A stretch of 64,000 nt of DNA, taken from positions 558,001-622,000 of the forward strand of contig NZ_BLWF01000001.1 in NCBI RefSeq assembly GCF_013167955.1, given 5' to 3'. Each line of letters opens with the position of its first letter. Within the stretch, counting starts at the first letter, position 1. Both the position numbers and the translations under genes were made by a program. The notes beneath the pieces were generated by a model, which was given only the letters and a program-made list of their open reading frames with translations, had not been told where the DNA came from and ran no database searches. Shown piece after piece: positions 11,294 to 22,468 of this stretch. Source of the DNA: Thermanaeromonas sp. C210 (lineage in GTDB: Bacteria; Bacillota; DSM-521; Neomoorellales; Neomoorellaceae).

Positions 11294-11319
11294 TTGACAG
11301 GGATCGCGGTTGCTAAAAT
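11294..11319 (+). promoter_or_regulatory. Candidate promoter for the fluoride riboswitch
   Basis: TTGACA at 11294-11299 and TAAAAT at 11314-11319 lie just upstream of the aptamer. The spacer is only 14 bases, which is short for a sigma-A promoter, so this pair may be degraded or another -35 may be used. Confidence 0.35.
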
Positions 11320-11337
11320 GAAGAGCAAGCGCAGATA

Positions 11338-11392
11338 AAGGGTGATCGAGCTCGCCGTACAATTGCCTTTGGCTGATGGCTCCTACAGGAAT
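11338..11392 (+). promoter_or_regulatory. Fluoride riboswitch (crcB motif) aptamer
   Basis: The sequence follows the crcB RNA consensus almost position by position. P1 is GGTG (11341-11344) with CGCC (11353-11356). The P1 loop GAGCT pairs with GGCTC (11378-11382) as the pseudoknot. The conserved GGCTGATGGCTCCTAC lies at 11371-11386. Fluoride binding in this family stabilises the pseudoknot and prevents the overlapping terminator. Known target genes are fluoride channels, CLC-F exporters and cation/proton antiporters. Here the downstream gene is a broken antiporter. Confidence 0.93.
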
Positions 11393-11417
11393 TTGTCGGT
11401 CCTGGAGGAGCCTTTTA
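11378..11417 (+). terminator. Riboswitch-controlled terminator
   Basis: GGCTCCT at 11378-11384 pairs with AGGAGCC at 11406-11412. An inner pairing of CAGGA with TCCTG extends the stem, and TTTT follows at once. The left arm is shared with the 3' pseudoknot strand of the fluoride aptamer, so the two structures exclude each other. Confidence 0.9.
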
Positions 11418-11564
11418 TTTATTTTATTGCCCGGAAGCAAAAGACCACATAGCCGCAGCAAAGGGGGGGGTTGAGTAATAGGGGAGACTCTGTTTAAGCG
11501 AACTAAGGCCTAAAGGGGAGGCTTTCATTACTTCCACTACCGAAAGAAGGGCGAGGTGCAAAAT

Positions 11565-11867
11565 ATGGAACACATCTTTACGTTAGCCGCCTTATAGTTG
11601 GGATTGGCCGTTCTTTCTGCTATCACCTCTTATCACCTGAAGATTTCCATTGCCTTGGCAGAAATATGTGTAGGAATAATTGCAGCCGCCGTAGCCACTG
11701 CTTTCGGCAAGGTAGAGGCTCTAGATTCGAACCAGGAATGGCTGTGTTTTCTGGCCTCTTATGGAGCCGTCCTGCTGACCTTCCTGGCCGGTGCGGAACT
11801 CGAGCGTGACGTAATGCGAAAAAGCTTAAGCCTATTCCGCCGCGAACCCCATCACCGGGTATGTTGA
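11565..11867 (+). pseudogene. Cation/proton antiporter (CPA2, KefB-like), truncated and interrupted
   Basis: Reading from ATG 11565 gives MEHIFTLAAL, then TAG at 11595-11597, then continues in frame with LGLAVLSAITSYHLKIS and further hydrophobic helices typical of the N-terminus of CPA2 Na+/H+ or K+/H+ antiporters. Only about 100 of the usual 380 or more residues remain before a TGA. GAGGTG at 11553-11558 would be its ribosome binding site. An early stop and loss of most membrane helices mean it cannot be a working transporter. The fluoride riboswitch upstream suggests it was once a fluoride-responsive antiporter. A rare TTG restart at 11598 is possible but would make only a fragment. Confidence 0.8.
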
Positions 11868-11983
11868 TGCCTTTCAATGCCTTTCAGGACCGGCCCAACA
11901 GGATGAGGCTTAGTTGGGTGGTCGCATCCTTTGGACAAAAAAATCCGGATTTAGTAAAGTAAAACTATAGGGAGGGCGCGGAA

Positions 11984-12949
11984 ATGGACTTTTTTAGGAA
12001 GTTCAGCTCTGTTATGCCCGTTCTGATCCTTCTCCTGTTCATGGTGATCATGAGCGGATGTAGCCGAACATCTGCGCCTTTTATTGATCTTACCAGAATT
12101 CAGGACGTAACGCCAGGGGAAGGGTTGGGGGAGAGGCCGGTTAGGGTGGCTATTTCTTCTATTACGTCGCCCAGTTATGGCCGGGCCTATTACGAAGAAC
12201 TCTTGGCATATTTATCCCGCCACCTACATCGCCCGGTGCAAGTAATACAGCGCAGGTCTTATGCGGAGGTTAACGACCTGTTGCGGGCCGGGGAAGTGGA
12301 CGTAGCTTTTATCTGCACCTATTCTTACGTAGCCGGACATGACGAATTCGGTTTGGAACTGTTGGTCGCTCCGCAAATAGACGGCAAGGTGACCTATCGC
12401 TCGTATCTAATAGCCCGGGCCGACGGCTCTATCCGTAGTTTCGACGACCTGCGGGGCCGTCGGTTCGCCTTTACCGACCCCATGTCTACCACGGGGACTC
12501 TTTACCCCCAACTTTTGTTAAAGGAGCGAGGGGAAACGGCAGAAAGCTTCTTCCGGTCCCATTTTTATACCTACAGCCACGATAATTCTATCATGGCTGT
12601 GGTAGAAGGCCTGGCCGATGGTGCCGCCGTCGAAAGTGAGATATTTAATTTTCTGGCGGCGGAAAAGCCGGAGTTGACGGGCCAGCTGGAGATAATTCAC
12701 CGCTCTCCTGAGTACGGTATGCCGCCGGTAGTAGCCAGGCCCGATCTGGAGGCCGGGACCAAGGCTGGGGTACGGGACATCCTGATGGCCATGCACCTGG
12801 ACGAGGACGGCCAGATTATCTTACGGCGACTCCATATTGAGCGTTTTGTGCCGGTAGAGGATAGCTTATACGAGGGAGTACGTGAGCTTGCGAGGTCGGT
12901 GAGGAACGGTGCGGCATCAGATTTTGCAGAAGATAGGCTTGCGCACTAA
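11984..12949 (+). CDS. PhnD-like periplasmic-binding lipoprotein, probable sensor partner
   Basis: A 321-residue substrate-binding protein of the phosphate/phosphite/phosphonate (PhnD, SBP type) fold. The N-terminus has a lipoprotein signal with lipobox MSGCS (Cys near residue 27), so it is probably anchored outside the membrane. The fold signature is seen in [39 protein letters not shown] and [14 protein letters not shown]. No ABC permease or ATPase follows. Its 3' end overlaps the histidine kinase gene by 41 bases, which suggests it presents a ligand to the kinase. In TtrS of tetrathionate reduction a PhnD-like domain is fused to the kinase, and here the two would be separate proteins. The ligand is not known. 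Confidence 0.85.
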
Positions 12950-14357
12950 ATTTATGCTGGTAGTACTGGTATTGATACTTTCGATAAGTGGGGCCTTTAT
13001 CAGTGAAATAAGAAAGGCTCTTCTAGAAAATATGCGCCAGCAGCTGGACGAACGGGGGGTCTACCTGGGCAGCACGGTAGCGGCTCAGAGCGTAGACCTT
13101 ATTTTTACCAATAACCTGTACGCTATACACCAGTTGATTAAGATAACCATGGAGGGCAACCCGGACATACGCTATTTATTTATAACCGATACTTCCGGGG
13201 AACTTCTAGGCAATTCCTTTGGGCAAGGGCTCCCGGAAGGCCTGCTGGAAGCCAATCTTATCCAAGAAGGCAGTAATAACTTTCAGGTGGTCCGTTTGTA
13301 CACCAACGAAGGCCTCATTCATGACGTGGCCGTTCCCGTATGGGAAGGCAAGGCGGGAACGGTGAGGCTGGGCTTAACTGAAACAAGTATTTGGGCCAAC
13401 CTGCGGCATCTGACTTGGAAGATGGTGGTGGTGGCCGTGCTGGTAGCCGTTCTGGGCAGTGGGGCTGCTTTTGCCCTGGCCTGTTTCTTGACGGCCCCTA
13501 TCTCTCGCCTGGTCGCCGCCGCCGAAGGGGTGGCCAGGGGGGATTTGAGCCGGAGGGTAAAACTGGGCTGGGCCAGCAAAGAGGCCCATCTCCTGGCGGA
13601 AACCTTTAACTTTATGATGGATAACCTGGAAAGGTCCACTCGGGAGATACGGCGGCAGAACGACGAGCTTAAGAACTTATGGAAAGAGCTGAGGGCCAAA
13701 GAGGAGATGCGGACTTATCTGTTGCAAAAGGTGATATCGGCCCAGGAAGAAGAGCGCAGGCGCATCGCCAGGGAGCTCCACGACCAGGTGGGCCAATCCG
13801 TGACCTATCTCATGATCAGCCTGCAGGGGCTGAAGCAAACCGCACCGGAAGCGGAAGGGAAACTGGAAGAATTACGGCAATTAACGGTAGAAGTGTTACA
13901 ACTCCTGCGCGACCTGGCCTTTGAACTACGGCCTTCCCTGTTGGACAACCTGGGCCTGAAAGAAGCCGTGGAGCGCTATTGTCAAGATTATGCTCGCAGA
14001 TACAAAATAAAGGTGGATATCCAGGCGGAGGGGGAGTGGAAAACCCTTCCTCCGGAGACGGCCATTGCCCTTTACCGGGTAATACAAGAAGCTTTGACTA
14101 ATGTAGTCCGCCATGCCCGGGCCTCCCAGGTGAGCCTGGTCTTGGAGAGGCGCGAGAACGAGGTCCTGGCCATAATCGAAGACGACGGTTGCGGCTTTGT
14201 TCCGGAACAAGTCCTGGCCGGGAAGCAGGGAGGGAAACACCTGGGATTATTCGGAATGCAGGAGAGGGTGGCCCTGGTGGGAGGGACCTTGACCATAGAA
14301 TCTTCGCTGGGACAGGGAACCACGGTTTATATCAGAGTGCCGGTACCTTCGCAGTGA
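12909..14357 (+). CDS. Sensor histidine kinase, NarX/DegS type
   Basis: A 482-residue membrane kinase. TM1 is at about 13-30, an extracytoplasmic Cache-like region at about 31-170, TM2 at about 174-196, then a HAMP domain ([20 protein letters not shown]). A coiled coil leads to a HisKA_3 box with the phosphorylated His291 ([14 protein letters not shown]). The HATPase domain has NVVRHARAS as its N box, DDGCGF as G1 and GLFGMQERV after it. The GTG start lies within the preceding lipoprotein gene, with GTGAGGA just before it. The response regulator follows 99 bases later. Together with the binding protein it likely senses the electron acceptor used by the molybdoenzyme downstream. Confidence 0.92.
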
Positions 14358-14456
14358 AGGATGAAAGTACCCGAGAAGCCGGCACAAAGAGAACTCGGGT
14401 CGAGCCAGTAGGATGCCTGCACCTGAACCCCGGAGGGGAAGGGGAGGTTTGAGGGA

Positions 14457-15113
14457 GTGGGAGATAAAATACGCATATTGCTGGCCGATGACCATGCTGT
14501 TTTGCGGGGGGGCCTGAAGCTTTTACTAAATACACAGCCGGACATGACGGTAATAGGTGAGGCTGCCGATGGCCGGGAAGCCGTGGATCTTTGCCGGGCC
14601 CTTAAACCGGATGTCTTGCTGCTGGACTTAAACATGCCGGGGGAGGGGGGCCTTAAGGCCCTGGAAGAGCTCAAGGATACCGGAACGCGCATCCTCGTGC
14701 TCACCATGTACGACGATGTGGCCTACTTGTGCCAGGCGGTGGAATCGGGAGCGGCAGGGTATATTTTAAAGAGCGCGGCGGATGTAGAATTGATCGCCGC
14801 CATAAGGGCCGCGGCCAGGGGCGAGTCTTATTACGATCCTGCCCTCACTAAACCCCTGGTTGATTATTTTGTCAATAAAAGAGAAAAGCAAAGGGGTTCC
14901 TCCAGGGCCGTGGATCTCTTAAGCGAGCGGGAAAAGGCAGTGTTGCGGCTGGTGGCTCTGGGTTATACTAACCGGCAGATTGCCCAAGAACTCACGATAA
15001 GCATTAAAACCGTAGAGGCCCACAAAGCCAATATCAGGGAAAAGTTGAAGTTAAAAGGCCGGGCTGAACTGGTGCGTTTTGCCATGGAGCAGGGGCTTTT
15101 GTCCCGACAGTAG
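14457..15113 (+). CDS. Response regulator, NarL/FixJ family
   Basis: A 218-residue two-domain regulator. The receiver (1-120) has the acidic pair Asp11-Asp12, phospho-acceptor Asp57 in LLDLNMPG, and Thr/Lys switch residues in VLTMYDD and YILKSA. The LuxR-type helix-turn-helix (about 155-215) has LSEREKAVLRLVALGYTNRQ and KTVEAHKANI. It is the natural partner of the adjacent HisKA_3 kinase. Two copies of a 16-base direct repeat just downstream (15122-15137 and 15155-15170) lie before the oxidoreductase genes and are good candidate binding sites, although that is inference. Confidence 0.94.
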   Translation: MGDKIRILLADDHAVLRGGLKLLLNTQPDMTVIGEAADGREAVDLCRALKPDVLLLDLNMPGEGGLKALEELKDTGTRILVLTMYDDVAYLCQAVESGAAGYILKSAADVELIAAIRAAARGESYYDPALTKPLVDYFVNKREKQRGSSRAVDLLSEREKAVLRLVALGYTNRQIAQELTISIKTVEAHKANIREKLKLKGRAELVRFAMEQGLLSRQ

Positions 15114-15121
15114 GGGAATAC

Positions 15122-15170
15122 TAGGGATTTACCCCAACCCCGCCCCCATCAAAATAGGGTTTTACCCCAA
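15122..15170 (+). promoter_or_regulatory. Paired direct repeats, candidate response-regulator operator
   Basis: TAGGGATTTACCCCAA at 15122-15137 and TAGGGTTTTACCCCAA at 15155-15170 differ at one base. They are 33 bp apart start to start, about three helical turns, so both face the same side of DNA. They occupy the gap between the response regulator and the FeS-subunit gene. Confidence 0.55.
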
Positions 15171-15237
15171 TTTCTGAATTGGCAGTCTAAAAGTAAAATT
15201 ATTGAGGGGAACAAGCTGAAAGAAGGGGGTTTCGGGA

Positions 15238-15948
15238 TTGGCTAGTGAAAGTACAGACATTCTGGTCGCCTTAAGTCGGCAACTGGAAAAAGCTCTGGAA
15301 AAGCCTAAAGAACGGCGCCGCTGGGTCATGGTTATCGACCTCAAGAAGTGTGTGGGGTGCAACGCTTGTACCATCAGCTGTAAGGCGGAAAACGTGCTGC
15401 CGCCCAATGTAGTTTATCGGCCGGTCCTGGAAGAAACCTTTGAGGAAAACGGGAGCGTGGGTCGTCGTTTCCTCCCCCGGCCGTGCATGCAGTGCGATAA
15501 CCCGCCCTGCGTGCGGATATGCCCCGTGAGGGCGACCTGGAAGGAAGCCGACGGAATAGTGGTAGTTGATTATAACAAGTGCATAGGTTGCCGTTACTGC
15601 CTAACCGCCTGTCCCTACGGTGCCAGGAGCTTTGACTTCGGAGAATACTATACGGAGAATACCCCGGAGGTCATGCTCTACGAAAGGGCTCCTGCGTGGG
15701 AATACGGCCGGCCATGGGTAAGGGAAAAGAAGAACTCTCCAGTGGGCAACGCGCGGAAATGCCATTTCTGTCTGCACCGCGTGGAAAAGGGGCTCCTTCC
15801 CGCCTGTGTGAACACCTGCATGGGCCGGGCCACCTACTTTGGTGATGCAGAAGGCAACACCCTGGTTTCCCAGCTCATCGTTTCACCGCGGGTAATGCGC
15901 CTTAAGGAAGAACTGGGCACCGAACCGCGGGTCTATTATCTGCTGTAA
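15238..15948 (+). CDS. ttrB: 4Fe-4S subunit of a molybdopterin oxidoreductase (TtrB-like)
   Basis: A 236-residue electron-transfer subunit of the DmsB/PsrB/TtrB family. Four cysteine groups for four cubane clusters are seen: CVGCNACTISC, CMQCDNPPCVRIC, CIGCRYCLTAC and CHFCLHRV with CVNTC. There is no Tat signal of its own, so it would be co-exported with the catalytic subunit. The start is TTG 15238 behind AAGAAGGGGG. It is followed 15 bases later by the NrfD-type subunit and then by the catalytic subunit, the same B-C-A order as ttrBCA (and srdBCA for selenate). The exact substrate is not shown by this subunit. Confidence 0.85.
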   Translation: MASESTDILVALSRQLEKALEKPKERRRWVMVIDLKKCVGCNACTISCKAENVLPPNVVYRPVLEETFEENGSVGRRFLPRPCMQCDNPPCVRICPVRATWKEADGIVVVDYNKCIGCRYCLTACPYGARSFDFGEYYTENTPEVMLYERAPAWEYGRPWVREKKNSPVGNARKCHFCLHRVEKGLLPACVNTCMGRATYFGDAEGNTLVSQLIVSPRVMRLKEELGTEPRVYYLL

Positions 15949-15963
15949 AGGGGGTGTCACATC

Positions 15964-17070
15964 ATGCGGAAAACCCTACCCTGGGCGGTCACCGTTGCGG
16001 CCTTAGTAGTCGGTTCATACGGGTTGTACAGCCGCTTATTCTACGGACACGCCGAGAATTTCGGCAATTACGTGACCTGGGGAATTTGGGTCAGTACCTA
16101 TTTGTACTTTATAGGCCTCTCGGCAGGAGCTTTTCTCGTAGGGACGGCTTTCAATGAACTCAGGAAGCTGTCGCGTGTAGTTGCCTTGGCCGCCTGCACC
16201 GGGGGGCTGCTGGCCATTTGGCTGGATCTCGGGCACATGGAACGCTTTTACCGCACCTTGATAGTGCCTAATTTTTCCTCGCCGATATCATGGTTGGTGT
16301 GGTTCTATACACTATACTTCATCCTTCTGGGGTGGTCTAACTATAGGAATCTCTGGAGGGGTGAAGAAGAGAGCCAAGGGTTAGGCTGGGCGGGAGTAGT
16401 CCTGGTCCTTGGCATTATTCTCAGCAGCAGTTTCCTCTTTGCCTTAAACACGGCCAAACCCTTCTGGAACACCGCCGTATTGCCCCTCCTGTTCTTGGGC
16501 GCGGCCGTAACCTCGGGCGGTGCTTTGTTAACCCTCTTAAGTAGCATTTTGCGGCCAGACGATAAAGAGCTTCTGACCCGGCTAAAACAAGTAGTTCTCG
16601 GCTCTCTGGCCCTTACGGCCTTCCTGGAGTTTAGCGAGATTTTCCTGGCAGTTAAAGGGGGGGCGCCGGAGCACTACGAAGTAGCCCGCTCCCTCCTAGT
16701 GGGCGCTTATGCTCCGGTCTTTTGGATAGGGGTGGTGCTGGTGGCCTTCATAGTGCCGTTAATCCTTTTACAGCCCCTCCGCTCCGGCGGGAAAAAGACC
16801 CAATGGGGCTGCATATCCCTTCTGGTCGGGTTTTTCGCCTTACGGTACTTGTTTGTGATTTCCGCCCAGGGGGTGCCTTCTCTTAAAGGCCTCGAGACGG
16901 CGGTCAGGGAAGCTCGCTATTCCTTTGAATACGTTCCCTCAGCCGGAGAATGGTTCACGGTAGTCTTTCTCTGCGGCCTGGTGGCGGCCCTAGTGTTGAC
17001 CGGCCTAGCCAGGATTGAGGAATTTAAGGTGGCCGGAGAAAGGGAAAAGGAGGCGAAGATCAATGCCTAA
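15964..17070 (+). CDS. ttrC: NrfD/PsrC-type membrane quinol subunit (TtrC-like)
   Basis: A 368-residue integral membrane protein with about nine hydrophobic helices, typical of the NrfD/PsrC/TtrC family that passes electrons from menaquinol to the FeS subunit. Helix-rich segments include ISTYLYFIGLSAGAF-like WVSTYLYFIGLSAG and FSSPISWLVWFYTLYF, close to conserved family positions. No haem-binding pattern is evident, as expected. The ATG 15964 start has AAAGGGGGTG before it. Its end overlaps the catalytic subunit by 8 bases, so expression is coupled. The substrate of the complex depends on the catalytic subunit. Confidence 0.85.
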   Translation: MRKTLPWAVTVAALVVGSYGLYSRLFYGHAENFGNYVTWGIWVSTYLYFIGLSAGAFLVGTAFNELRKLSRVVALAACTGGLLAIWLDLGHMERFYRTLIVPNFSSPISWLVWFYTLYFILLGWSNYRNLWRGEEESQGLGWAGVVLVLGIILSSSFLFALNTAKPFWNTAVLPLLFLGAAVTSGGALLTLLSSILRPDDKELLTRLKQVVLGSLALTAFLEFSEIFLAVKGGAPEHYEVARSLLVGAYAPVFWIGVVLVAFIVPLILLQPLRSGGKKTQWGCISLLVGFFALRYLFVISAQGVPSLKGLETAVREARYSFEYVPSAGEWFTVVFLCGLVAALVLTGLARIEEFKVAGEREKEAKINA

Positions 17071-20000
17071 GGGCTTTCTTCTAAGCCGGCGGCAGTTTCT
17101 TAAGACTTCTGCTTTGGTAGGAGGTTCTGCCCTCTTGCTTTCCCGAGTGGATAAGGCCTTCAGTGAAGTAGCGCAGGCCGAGGGCAAGGGAGAATATCCT
17201 TTGACGGGCCCGGCAAGTTATATACCCACCGTTTGTTTGCAGTGCAATACGGGGTGCGGCATAAAGGCCAAAATTTATGACGGGGTGGTAGTCAAAATCG
17301 ACGGCAACCCCTTTAACCCCTGGACCTTGCATCCTCCTTTGCCCTACGGCTCCAGTCTAAGGGAGGCGGCTAACATCGACGGGGCCATATGCCCCAAGGG
17401 ACAGGCGGGCATCCAAACCTTATACGACCCCTACCGCCTTAGGAAAGTCCTGAAACGGGCGGGGAAACGCGGGGAGAACAAGTGGGTTACCATTCCCTTT
17501 GAACAAGCGGTAGAGGAAATAGTTAACGGCGGTTATCTCTTTAAAGACGTTCCCGGAGAGGAGAGCCGGTACGTACCGGGGTTGAGGGAGATATACGCCT
17601 TGCGGGACGCCAAACTCAGCAAAGATATGGCCCAGGATGTTAAGAAGATATGGGCCAAAGAAATGACGGTGGAACAGTTCAAAGATAAATATCGAGATCA
17701 TTTAAAGCTGCTAATAGATCCCGACCACCCGGACCTAGGGCCCCAAAATAATCAACTGGTGTTTATGTGGGGCCGCCTCAAAAAGGGTCGAGAAGAGTTT
17801 ATCAAGCGCTTTGTCCAGGACGGCTTCGGCTCCCTAAACACCCACGGTCATACCACGGTATGCCAGGGTTCCCTGTATTTTCTATGCAAGGCCATGAGTG
17901 AGCAATATGTCTTCAGCGAAAGCGATGGAAAGATGAAATGGGCCGAGGGACAAAAATTTTACTGGCAGGCCGACCTGGCTCATGCGCGCTTTGCCCTTCT
18001 GGTGGGAGCCTCTCCCTTTGAGGCCAACTACGGTCCCTCTAACCGAATTCCCGACATCACGGAGGGGCTGGCCAGCGGGCGGTTGAAATACGCCGTCATC
18101 GATCCCCGTTTTTCCAAGACTGCTGCCAAGGCCTGGAAGTGGCTGCCCAATAAACCCGGCACCGAGGCTGCGCCCGCCCTGGCCATTATTCGCTGGATGA
18201 TCGATAACCGGCGTTTTGACGAAACTTATGTGCGCAACGCCAACAAGGCGGCGGCCCAGGCCGACGGCGAAGCCTCCTGGACCAACGCCACCTGGCTGGT
18301 GAAGGTGGAAAACGGGAATCCGGTGAGGTTCCTGAGGGGTTCGGATCTGGGATGGCCGAAACAAATTAGAGAGGCCGAGGTGAAGGGGCAAAAAGTTAAA
18401 TACGAATTCGACCCCTTTGTGGTCCTGTCTTCCGGTCGGCCGGTACCTTGCGATCCCAACGATGACGAAAACCCGGTGGAAGGGGACCTCTTGGTCGACA
18501 CCGTGCTAAACGGCCACCGGGTTAAGAGCTCCTTGCAACTCCTTTACGACGAGGCCAGGAAGAAATCCTTTGCCGAATGGGCCGAAGTGGCCGGCGTTGA
18601 CGCGGGCGACCTGGAGGAAATAGCAATAGAATTGACGTCCTACGGGAAGGCGGCGGCCGTCGACGTCCACCGCGGCGTATCCCAGCACACCAACGGTTTT
18701 TACAATGTCTTTGCTTGGATGTGTGTTAACGTCCTGCTGGGCAACTTCAACTGGGCCGGAGGCATGGTGAAGGCCACCACCTACGATCACTTCGGGGATA
18801 AGGAAGGGAAGCCCTATAAACTTAAAGAGCTGAATCCCGGCAAGCTCTCTCCCTTCGGAATAAGCATTATTCGCCATGAGGTAAAATATGAAGATACTAC
18901 CTTGTTTGCGGGCTACCCTTCGGCCAGACCGTGGTATCCCCTTTCCAGCGACGTATACCAGGAAATCATACCCTCCTTAGGCGACGGGTATCCCTATCCG
19001 GTTAAGGCCCTGTTCTTATATATGGGGTCGCCGGTGTACTCCTTGCCTGCGGGTCAGACCAATATAGAGATACTGCGGGATCCGCAGAAGCTGCCCCTTT
19101 TCGTGGCCATAGATATTACCGTGGGCGAGACCTCCATGTATGCCGATTATATTTTCCCCGATCTCACGTACCTGGAGCGCTGGGAGTTTCACGGATCGCA
19201 CCCCAGCGTGTTGCCCAAGGTACAGCCCGTGCGCCAGCCGGCGGTGGCGCCTCTGACGGAGACGGTTAGGGTGTTCGGCGAAGAGCAGCCCTTAGGCCTG
19301 GAAGCCCTCCTGTTGGCTCTGGCGGAAAAGCTCGGCCTGCCCAACTTTGGCCCCGACGGATTTGGCCCGGGCCAAAGGTTTACCAAGCCGGAGGATTTTT
19401 ACCTTAAGATGGTGGCCAATCTTGCCTTTGGAGACAAGGCAGATGGCAGCGAGCAGGTGCCTGACGCCGACCCGGCAGAGGTAGAGATATTTTTGGCCGC
19501 CCGCCGGCACCTGCCGCCTACGGTGTTCGACCCGGAACGATGGGAGAGGGCGGCCGGCAGGCCCTGGTGGGGGAAGGTCGTCTATGTACTCAACCGCGGC
19601 GGCCGCTTTGAGGATTACCCCCTTCTTGCGTCGGGGCAGCAAGTCAAGAACAAATATGACAAACAGATTAATATCTTCCAGGAAAAGACGGCAACATCCA
19701 AGAACAGCATGACGGGTAAGAACTTCGTCGGTGTGGCCACTTATATAGAACCCTATACGGACTGCCTGGGCCGGCCCCTCGGGGATGGGGAACAGGGTTA
19801 TAACCTCAAGCTTATTACCTTCAAAGACATCCTGCACACTAAGTCCCGGACCATGGCCGATTACTGGCTGCACGGGATTATGGACGAAAACCTTTTCCTC
19901 GTGCACCCTCAAGATGCTGCCGGTTTGGGTTTGAGGGATGGAGATGTCGTCAAGGTAGTCTCGGCCAGCAATCCAGAGGGGATTTGGCCCTTGGCCGAGG

Positions 20001-20278
20001 GCCTGCATAAACCGATAGTCGGCAAGGTAAAGATAACGCCCATGATAAGGCAGGGCACCGTAACCTTCAGTCTGGGCTTCGGTCACTGGGCCTACGGCGC
20101 CGGTGATATTACCATCGATGGCCATGTCGTTAAAGGAGATCCTCGGCGGGCCCGGGGCGTGCATGCCAACGCGGCCATGCGTGTCGATCCCGTACTCAAG
20201 AATACCTGTCTTACAGACCTGCCGGGCGGCAGCGCCGTCTTTTACGATACCCTAGTTAAACTCGTAAAGGTTTCCTGA
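17063..20278 (+). CDS. ttrA: Molybdopterin oxidoreductase catalytic subunit, tetrathionate-reductase-like
   Basis: A 1071-residue exported molybdoenzyme. The N-terminus has a clear Tat signal (LSRRQFLKTSAL). Next is the proximal 4Fe-4S motif CLQCNTGCGIK with the fourth Cys in GAICPKGQAG. HTTVCQGS, about residue 270, likely supplies a cysteine ligand to Mo. A C-terminal molybdopterin dinucleotide-binding domain follows after about residue 930 (HPQDAAGLGLRDGDVVKV). Length and B-C-A gene order fit TtrA, and the upstream PhnD-kinase-regulator set strengthens this. Selenate, thiosulfate or other oxyanion reductases of the same clade cannot be excluded. ATG 17063 follows AAAGGAGG. Confidence 0.82.
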   Translation: MPKGFLLSRRQFLKTSALVGGSALLLSRVDKAFSEVAQAEGKGEYPLTGPASYIPTVCLQCNTGCGIKAKIYDGVVVKIDGNPFNPWTLHPPLPYGSSLREAANIDGAICPKGQAGIQTLYDPYRLRKVLKRAGKRGENKWVTIPFEQAVEEIVNGGYLFKDVPGEESRYVPGLREIYALRDAKLSKDMAQDVKKIWAKEMTVEQFKDKYRDHLKLLIDPDHPDLGPQNNQLVFMWGRLKKGREEFIKRFVQDGFGSLNTHGHTTVCQGSLYFLCKAMSEQYVFSESDGKMKWAEGQKFYWQADLAHARFALLVGASPFEANYGPSNRIPDITEGLASGRLKYAVIDPRFSKTAAKAWKWLPNKPGTEAAPALAIIRWMIDNRRFDETYVRNANKAAAQADGEASWTNATWLVKVENGNPVRFLRGSDLGWPKQIREAEVKGQKVKYEFDPFVVLSSGRPVPCDPNDDENPVEGDLLVDTVLNGHRVKSSLQLLYDEARKKSFAEWAEVAGVDAGDLEEIAIELTSYGKAAAVDVHRGVSQHTNGFYNVFAWMCVNVLLGNFNWAGGMVKATTYDHFGDKEGKPYKLKELNPGKLSPFGISIIRHEVKYEDTTLFAGYPSARPWYPLSSDVYQEIIPSLGDGYPYPVKALFLYMGSPVYSLPAGQTNIEILRDPQKLPLFVAIDITVGETSMYADYIFPDLTYLERWEFHGSHPSVLPKVQPVRQPAVAPLTETVRVFGEEQPLGLEALLLALAEKLGLPNFGPDGFGPGQRFTKPEDFYLKMVANLAFGDKADGSEQVPDADPAEVEIFLAARRHLPPTVFDPERWERAAGRPWWGKVVYVLNRGGRFEDYPLLASGQQVKNKYDKQINIFQEKTATSKNSMTGKNFVGVATYIEPYTDCLGRPLGDGEQGYNLKLITFKDILHTKSRTMADYWLHGIMDENLFLVHPQDAAGLGLRDGDVVKVVSASNPEGIWPLAEGLHKPIVGKVKITPMIRQGTVTFSLGFGHWAYGAGDITIDGHVVKGDPRRARGVHANAAMRVDPVLKNTCLTDLPGGSAVFYDTLVKLVKVS

Positions 20279-22360: not shown

Positions 22361-22468
22361 CTCTCATCTGCCAGGAGAAATCCTGCAGGAATTGGCACCG
22401 TACCTGGTTCTAACAGGCCGGTTGCCGGGCTTCATTGGGCCAGTCCCTCCGCCAGCTCTTGATAAGAG
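22361..22468 (-). promoter_or_regulatory. SAM-I riboswitch (S-box)
   Basis: On the minus strand the region begins CTCTTATCAAGAG and ends CAGATGAGAG, closing P1. It contains the near-invariant GGCGGAGGGACTGGCCC, TGAAGCCCGGCAACC and GGTGCCAATTCCTGCA blocks of the S-box. Excess S-adenosylmethionine favours the downstream terminator. The only gene behind it here is the decayed trans-sulfuration enzyme. metN-metI lie upstream of it and read towards it. Confidence 0.97.

Follow-up and report, generated by a model that had tools for sequence, protein, structure and literature searches.

The window analysed here, a 64,000-nucleotide stretch of the Thermanaeromonas sp. C210 genome, carries on its forward strand a fluoride riboswitch aptamer, an intrinsic terminator and the N-terminal remnant of a CPA2 antiporter gene, followed by an operon on the same strand. 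When the window was searched with Rfam, exactly two matches exceeded the curated cut-offs: a SAM riboswitch (22361-22468, reverse strand, 88 bits) and a fluoride (crcB) riboswitch (RF01734; E 1.1e-6). A first-pass annotation, made from the letters alone, had placed a crcB aptamer at 11338 and proposed this covariance-model search; the match above the gathering cut-off bears out the family, but the aptamer starts at 11332. The features of the locus are:

11294..11319, forward strand: possible promoter (TTGACA, 14-nt spacer, extended -10 TGC-TAAAAT), read from the sequence
11332..11392, forward strand: fluoride riboswitch aptamer (RF01734), 37.2 bits, gathering cut-off 34
11347..11351, forward strand: 5' pseudoknot strand CGAGC, with C as first base where 90 other inspected aptamers have G
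11379..11383, forward strand: 3' pseudoknot strand GCTCC, common to aptamer and terminator
11378..11425, forward strand: intrinsic terminator hairpin (12 pairs, one mismatch) plus U-rich tail, fold -20.4 kcal/mol, z -3.1
11565..11828, forward strand: N-terminal remnant of a CPA2 antiporter, about residues 1-88 of about 400
11595..11597, forward strand: TAG at codon 11, where 60 of 60 intact homologues have Trp

The possible promoter is absent from the output of a consensus scan, and its spacer is short. In the aptamer, P1, P3 and the linchpin A and U positions are retained, as are four pseudoknot pairs out of five. The remaining one, the first pair at the end of the pseudoknot helix, is a C.C. 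The P1 loop and the strand before the UAC thus do not form the full pseudoknot, which has all five pairs in 90 other aptamers, and the earlier statement that the element matches the crcB consensus including P1 and the pseudoknot partner is not exact as regards the pseudoknot. That the terminator shares the pseudoknot strand, in contrast, was read correctly: the hairpin at 11378-11412 (z -3.1 against shuffles), after which UUUUAUUUAUUUU comes, overlaps 11379-11383 and so provides the expression platform of RF01734. This is the arrangement of known transcriptional fluoride switches (PMC11077080). The window switch is thus like other RF01734 riboswitches in P1, P3, the linchpin A and U, the pseudoknot-terminator overlap and the ON-switch layout, but departs from their norm in its broken pseudoknot pair, in a score below that of intact counterparts and in having no intact gene behind it. 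From its sequence we consider it a member of RF01734 by descent, and doubtful as a working switch.

The reading frame behind the switch (11565-11867) begins MEHIFTLAAL*LGLAV.... The sequence beyond the stop codon is similar to PF00999 (E 8e-5) and to the CPA2 model TIGR00932, which confirms the earlier description of a CPA2 antiporter interrupted by TAG after 10 codons. In both models the remnant scores below the whole-protein curated cut-off, as little of the domain is left. Similarity to intact antiporters stops at about 11828. The loss of "most of its C-terminus" claimed before is therefore real as a truncation, but it takes in some 310 of the 400 residues and so the greater part of the protein. 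With residues 1-88 only, an internal TAG and no full-length exchanger domain, the frame is a pseudogene. What is left of it keeps 29 of the 32 positions that are conserved at 90% or more in the alignment columns of 60 intact homologues, and one of the three that differ is the stop codon. A TAG at an invariant Trp, together with the 29 retained positions, makes the decay, and hence the loss of the gene, look recent. When the stretch 11834-11984 was compared with intact genes by DNA alignment and profile scan in search of the deletion junction, the one match (FRRE near residue 325) was no better than chance, and we do not claim an exact deletion.

With the 89-residue piece as query, 117 relatives were recovered from bacterial and archaeal genomes, and the best of them (L079, L080, L081 and L082) are 71-73% identical to it. 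Those on sufficiently long contigs are intact antiporters of about 400 residues and come from many phyla. In the closest subfamily, 39 loci were checked for RF01734: 30 have it no more than about 250 nt upstream of the antiporter and another five at a greater distance upstream, so that the intact counterpart for which the first-pass annotation had suggested looking among relatives does exist. Two Pelotomaculum loci (L080 and L082) and L079 encode such fluoride-riboswitch-associated CPA2 antiporters, and they match the remnant with 71-73% identity over the N-terminal 77 or so residues; the remnant differs from them in consisting of residues 1-88 only, with a nonsense codon at position 11. The L079 switch is also the nearest in sequence to the window switch (GGCGATGGAGCTCGCCGTATATGC ... 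CTCCTACAGGA). In a tree based on a short alignment the remnant groups with L080 (support 0.86). Its assignment to a second antiporter type, which we call Moorella-type from features of the family, was ruled out, since it is 38-49% identical to that type and up to 73% identical to the other subfamily.

The remainder of the gene was not found in the genome: a search of the whole genome with the full-length intact L080 protein matched residues 1-88 only. The genome has just one other PF00999 gene, which encodes an intact antiporter elsewhere and has no fluoride switch; no further CPA2 gene was found. Since the same riboswitch precedes intact homologues and the rest of the gene is gone, the earlier conclusion that the switch outlived its gene is right. 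The genome is a draft in 19 contigs, and an error of sequencing or assembly might have broken a normal switch-antiporter unit; yet the genome sequence, at 99% completeness, lacks about three quarters of the gene, and the locus is internal to a contig of 850 kb. A sequencing error cannot explain the loss of a part that is absent from the whole genome. We regard the chance that the unit was broken by such an error as close to negligible.

We then surveyed the pseudoknot in 92 aptamers. Five pairs were parsed in 90 of them (71 + 19), and two more, missed by the pattern, were complete by eye. All but two of the 92 have the five standard pairs, with a G.U among them in 11 of those parsed. Both mismatched aptamers belong to the window genome: the window switch with its C.C at the first pair, and a second fluoride riboswitch (C4:157010-157068, reverse strand; loci L002 and L034) with an A.C at the fourth. 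If two mismatches were placed at random among the 92, both would fall in the window genome with a chance of 1 in 4,186, a rough figure that overstates the certainty, as the aptamers are related. Moreover, each switch scores lowest among its counterparts. The window switch reaches 37.2 bits, compared to at least 38.6 where the switch stands directly before an intact antiporter of the remnant's subfamily, and the C4 switch 34.1 bits, compared to at least 37 for the switches of Moorella-type antiporters. Both switches of the genome thus appear to be decaying themselves. Among the published tests consulted, none covers the exact C.C or A.C mismatch; PMC11077080 tests other positions.

Some fluoride response may be left in the window aptamer, because it scores above the cut-off and has retained P1, P3, the linchpin positions and four of the five pairs. 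These retained elements and the good preservation of the remnant would also fit a switch that tolerates its mismatch and still works, driving nothing but non-coding or junk read-through RNA, with the antiporter lost too recently for the RNA to have decayed. We think this unlikely, however, given that the second, independent switch of the genome is mismatched as well and none of the other 90 aptamers is.

The C4 switch is nearly identical to switches that precede the Moorella-type CPA2 antiporter in relatives of the same family. RF01734 lies directly before this antiporter in nine relatives, where UspA-like and MFS-like genes (named by eye from the sequence) come behind it; the genome that carries the C4 switch was found to have no Moorella-type antiporter. 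The gene after the C4 switch starts about 240 nt beyond the terminator and encodes a frameshifted ArsP-type permease (L034 2568-3742, reverse strand). Control of this permease by the switch was rejected because of that distance, the frameshift and the ArsP/metal-efflux family, which to our knowledge is not linked to fluoride. Upstream of the switch lie what look by eye like fragments of a TraG/coupling protein. In the whole genome neither CrcB nor CLC was found. The absence of CrcB by itself is not unusual in the family, but the relatives G002, G007 and G014, in which it is missing too, retain a switch-controlled antiporter.

A different fate is seen in G013, a genome of the same family, in which only about 37 codons of the antiporter remain behind the counterpart switch, with an intact MFS-like gene directly after them:

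L062, about 14010 to 13730, reverse strand: switch, antiporter stub and MFS-like gene of G013

As in the window, the switch is retained and the antiporter reduced to an N-terminal stub. Unlike in the window, the pseudoknot is complete, and the intact gene directly behind is of a kind that has fluoride switches in relatives. The deletion has apparently led to capture of the riboswitch by the MFS-like gene. In G222 (L072 1390-2000), a switch-like leader precedes an antiporter that is frameshifted near codon 100; together with the G013 stub, this indicates that switch-controlled antiporters have been lost recurrently. G013 is consistent with the idea that a switch would stay intact while it has a useful gene to control and decay when it has none. 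A possible exception to decay without a gene is G004, where a switch that seems to be an orphan, at a contig end, has an intact pseudoknot.

In the window, the genes behind the remnant begin at 11984 on the forward strand with a PhnD-like lipoprotein, a histidine kinase and a response regulator, and continue with Fe-S, NrfD and TtrA-like genes; the stretch 11984-20278 looks like a tetrathionate-reductase-type cluster. Its sensor is split into the PhnD-like lipoprotein, a separate histidine kinase and a LuxR/NarL-type regulator. A switch that still senses fluoride could control this operon by read-through over the dead gene. It lies on the same strand, no clear terminator was found between 11425 and 11984, the aptamer is above the cut-off, and a similar deletion in G013 did bring an intact gene directly behind the switch. 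However, the pseudoknot is intact in G013 and broken in the window. Furthermore, the cluster has its own sensor, no homologue of the PhnD-like gene in relatives was found near a fluoride switch, and a weak promoter-like site, of which about one would be expected by chance, lies right before 11984. Fluoride control of the cluster is possible but unsupported, and we judge continued control of the next operon to be quite improbable. It seems very improbable, too, that the switch works well enough to have placed the sensor and the tetrathionate-reductase-like cluster under fluoride control, as a natural riboswitch capture after gene loss. The suggestion that the switch regulates something else is weak in the light of the pseudoknot mismatch and of downstream genes that have no link to fluoride.

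We therefore favour, with a probability of roughly 80%, the reading that the window locus is an unselected relic of a fluoride-response unit, held in the terminated state by a decaying aptamer, and that the C4 switch has met the same fate. Its ancestor would have been an ordinary ON switch acting on transcription. In the absence of fluoride, the hairpin at 11378-11412 would have formed and transcription would have ended at about 11415-11425, giving a short RNA; when fluoride was present, the pseudoknotted aptamer would have sequestered 11379-11383, the hairpin would have been blocked and the CPA2 antiporter transcribed. The proposal that the locus makes a short RNA on fluoride thus has the sign reversed, as the terminated RNA is the product expected without fluoride. 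The antiporter would then have been lost through the nonsense codon and the disappearance of most of the gene. With no target left, decay of the aptamer would have begun, with one pseudoknot pair broken and the terminator still strong. The fluoride response of the present aptamer is probably poor or nil, and the leader most likely terminates nearly always and has no function; any read-through would meet only the broken frame and then the genes from 11984. We infer that the fluoride response has been lost and that selection is absent.

In this relic reading, the window locus belongs to a known family and is not a new system; what is unusual is its evolutionary state. Beyond the first-pass annotation, the analysis adds that the switch itself appears to be decaying, that this has happened twice in one genome, and that a relative has taken an alternative route. 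The loci form a natural series of riboswitch ageing after gene loss: an intact switch with an intact gene in relatives, an intact switch with its neighbour gene brought up behind it in G013, and damaged switches without a fluoride-associated gene, twice, in the window genome (G000). The aptamer seems to decay ahead of the terminator. The series suggests that an anaerobe can lose all recognisable fluoride exporters, and for annotation it means that a match to a curated model is not proof of a working switch. Full-text literature searches, judged by titles and abstracts, returned no plainly comparable earlier report of riboswitches before pseudogenes, although absence is not thereby proven.

Finally, the loci L065, L060 and L063 (G016, G011 and G014, respectively) contain clusters with three to five fluoride riboswitches. 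The genes behind these, not all present in each genome and, except for crcB, named by eye, are crcB pairs, a dynamin-like GTPase, a DUF190-like gene, antiporter-UspA genes and MFS-like genes. The association of the dynamin-like GTPase with fluoride riboswitches looks worth study.
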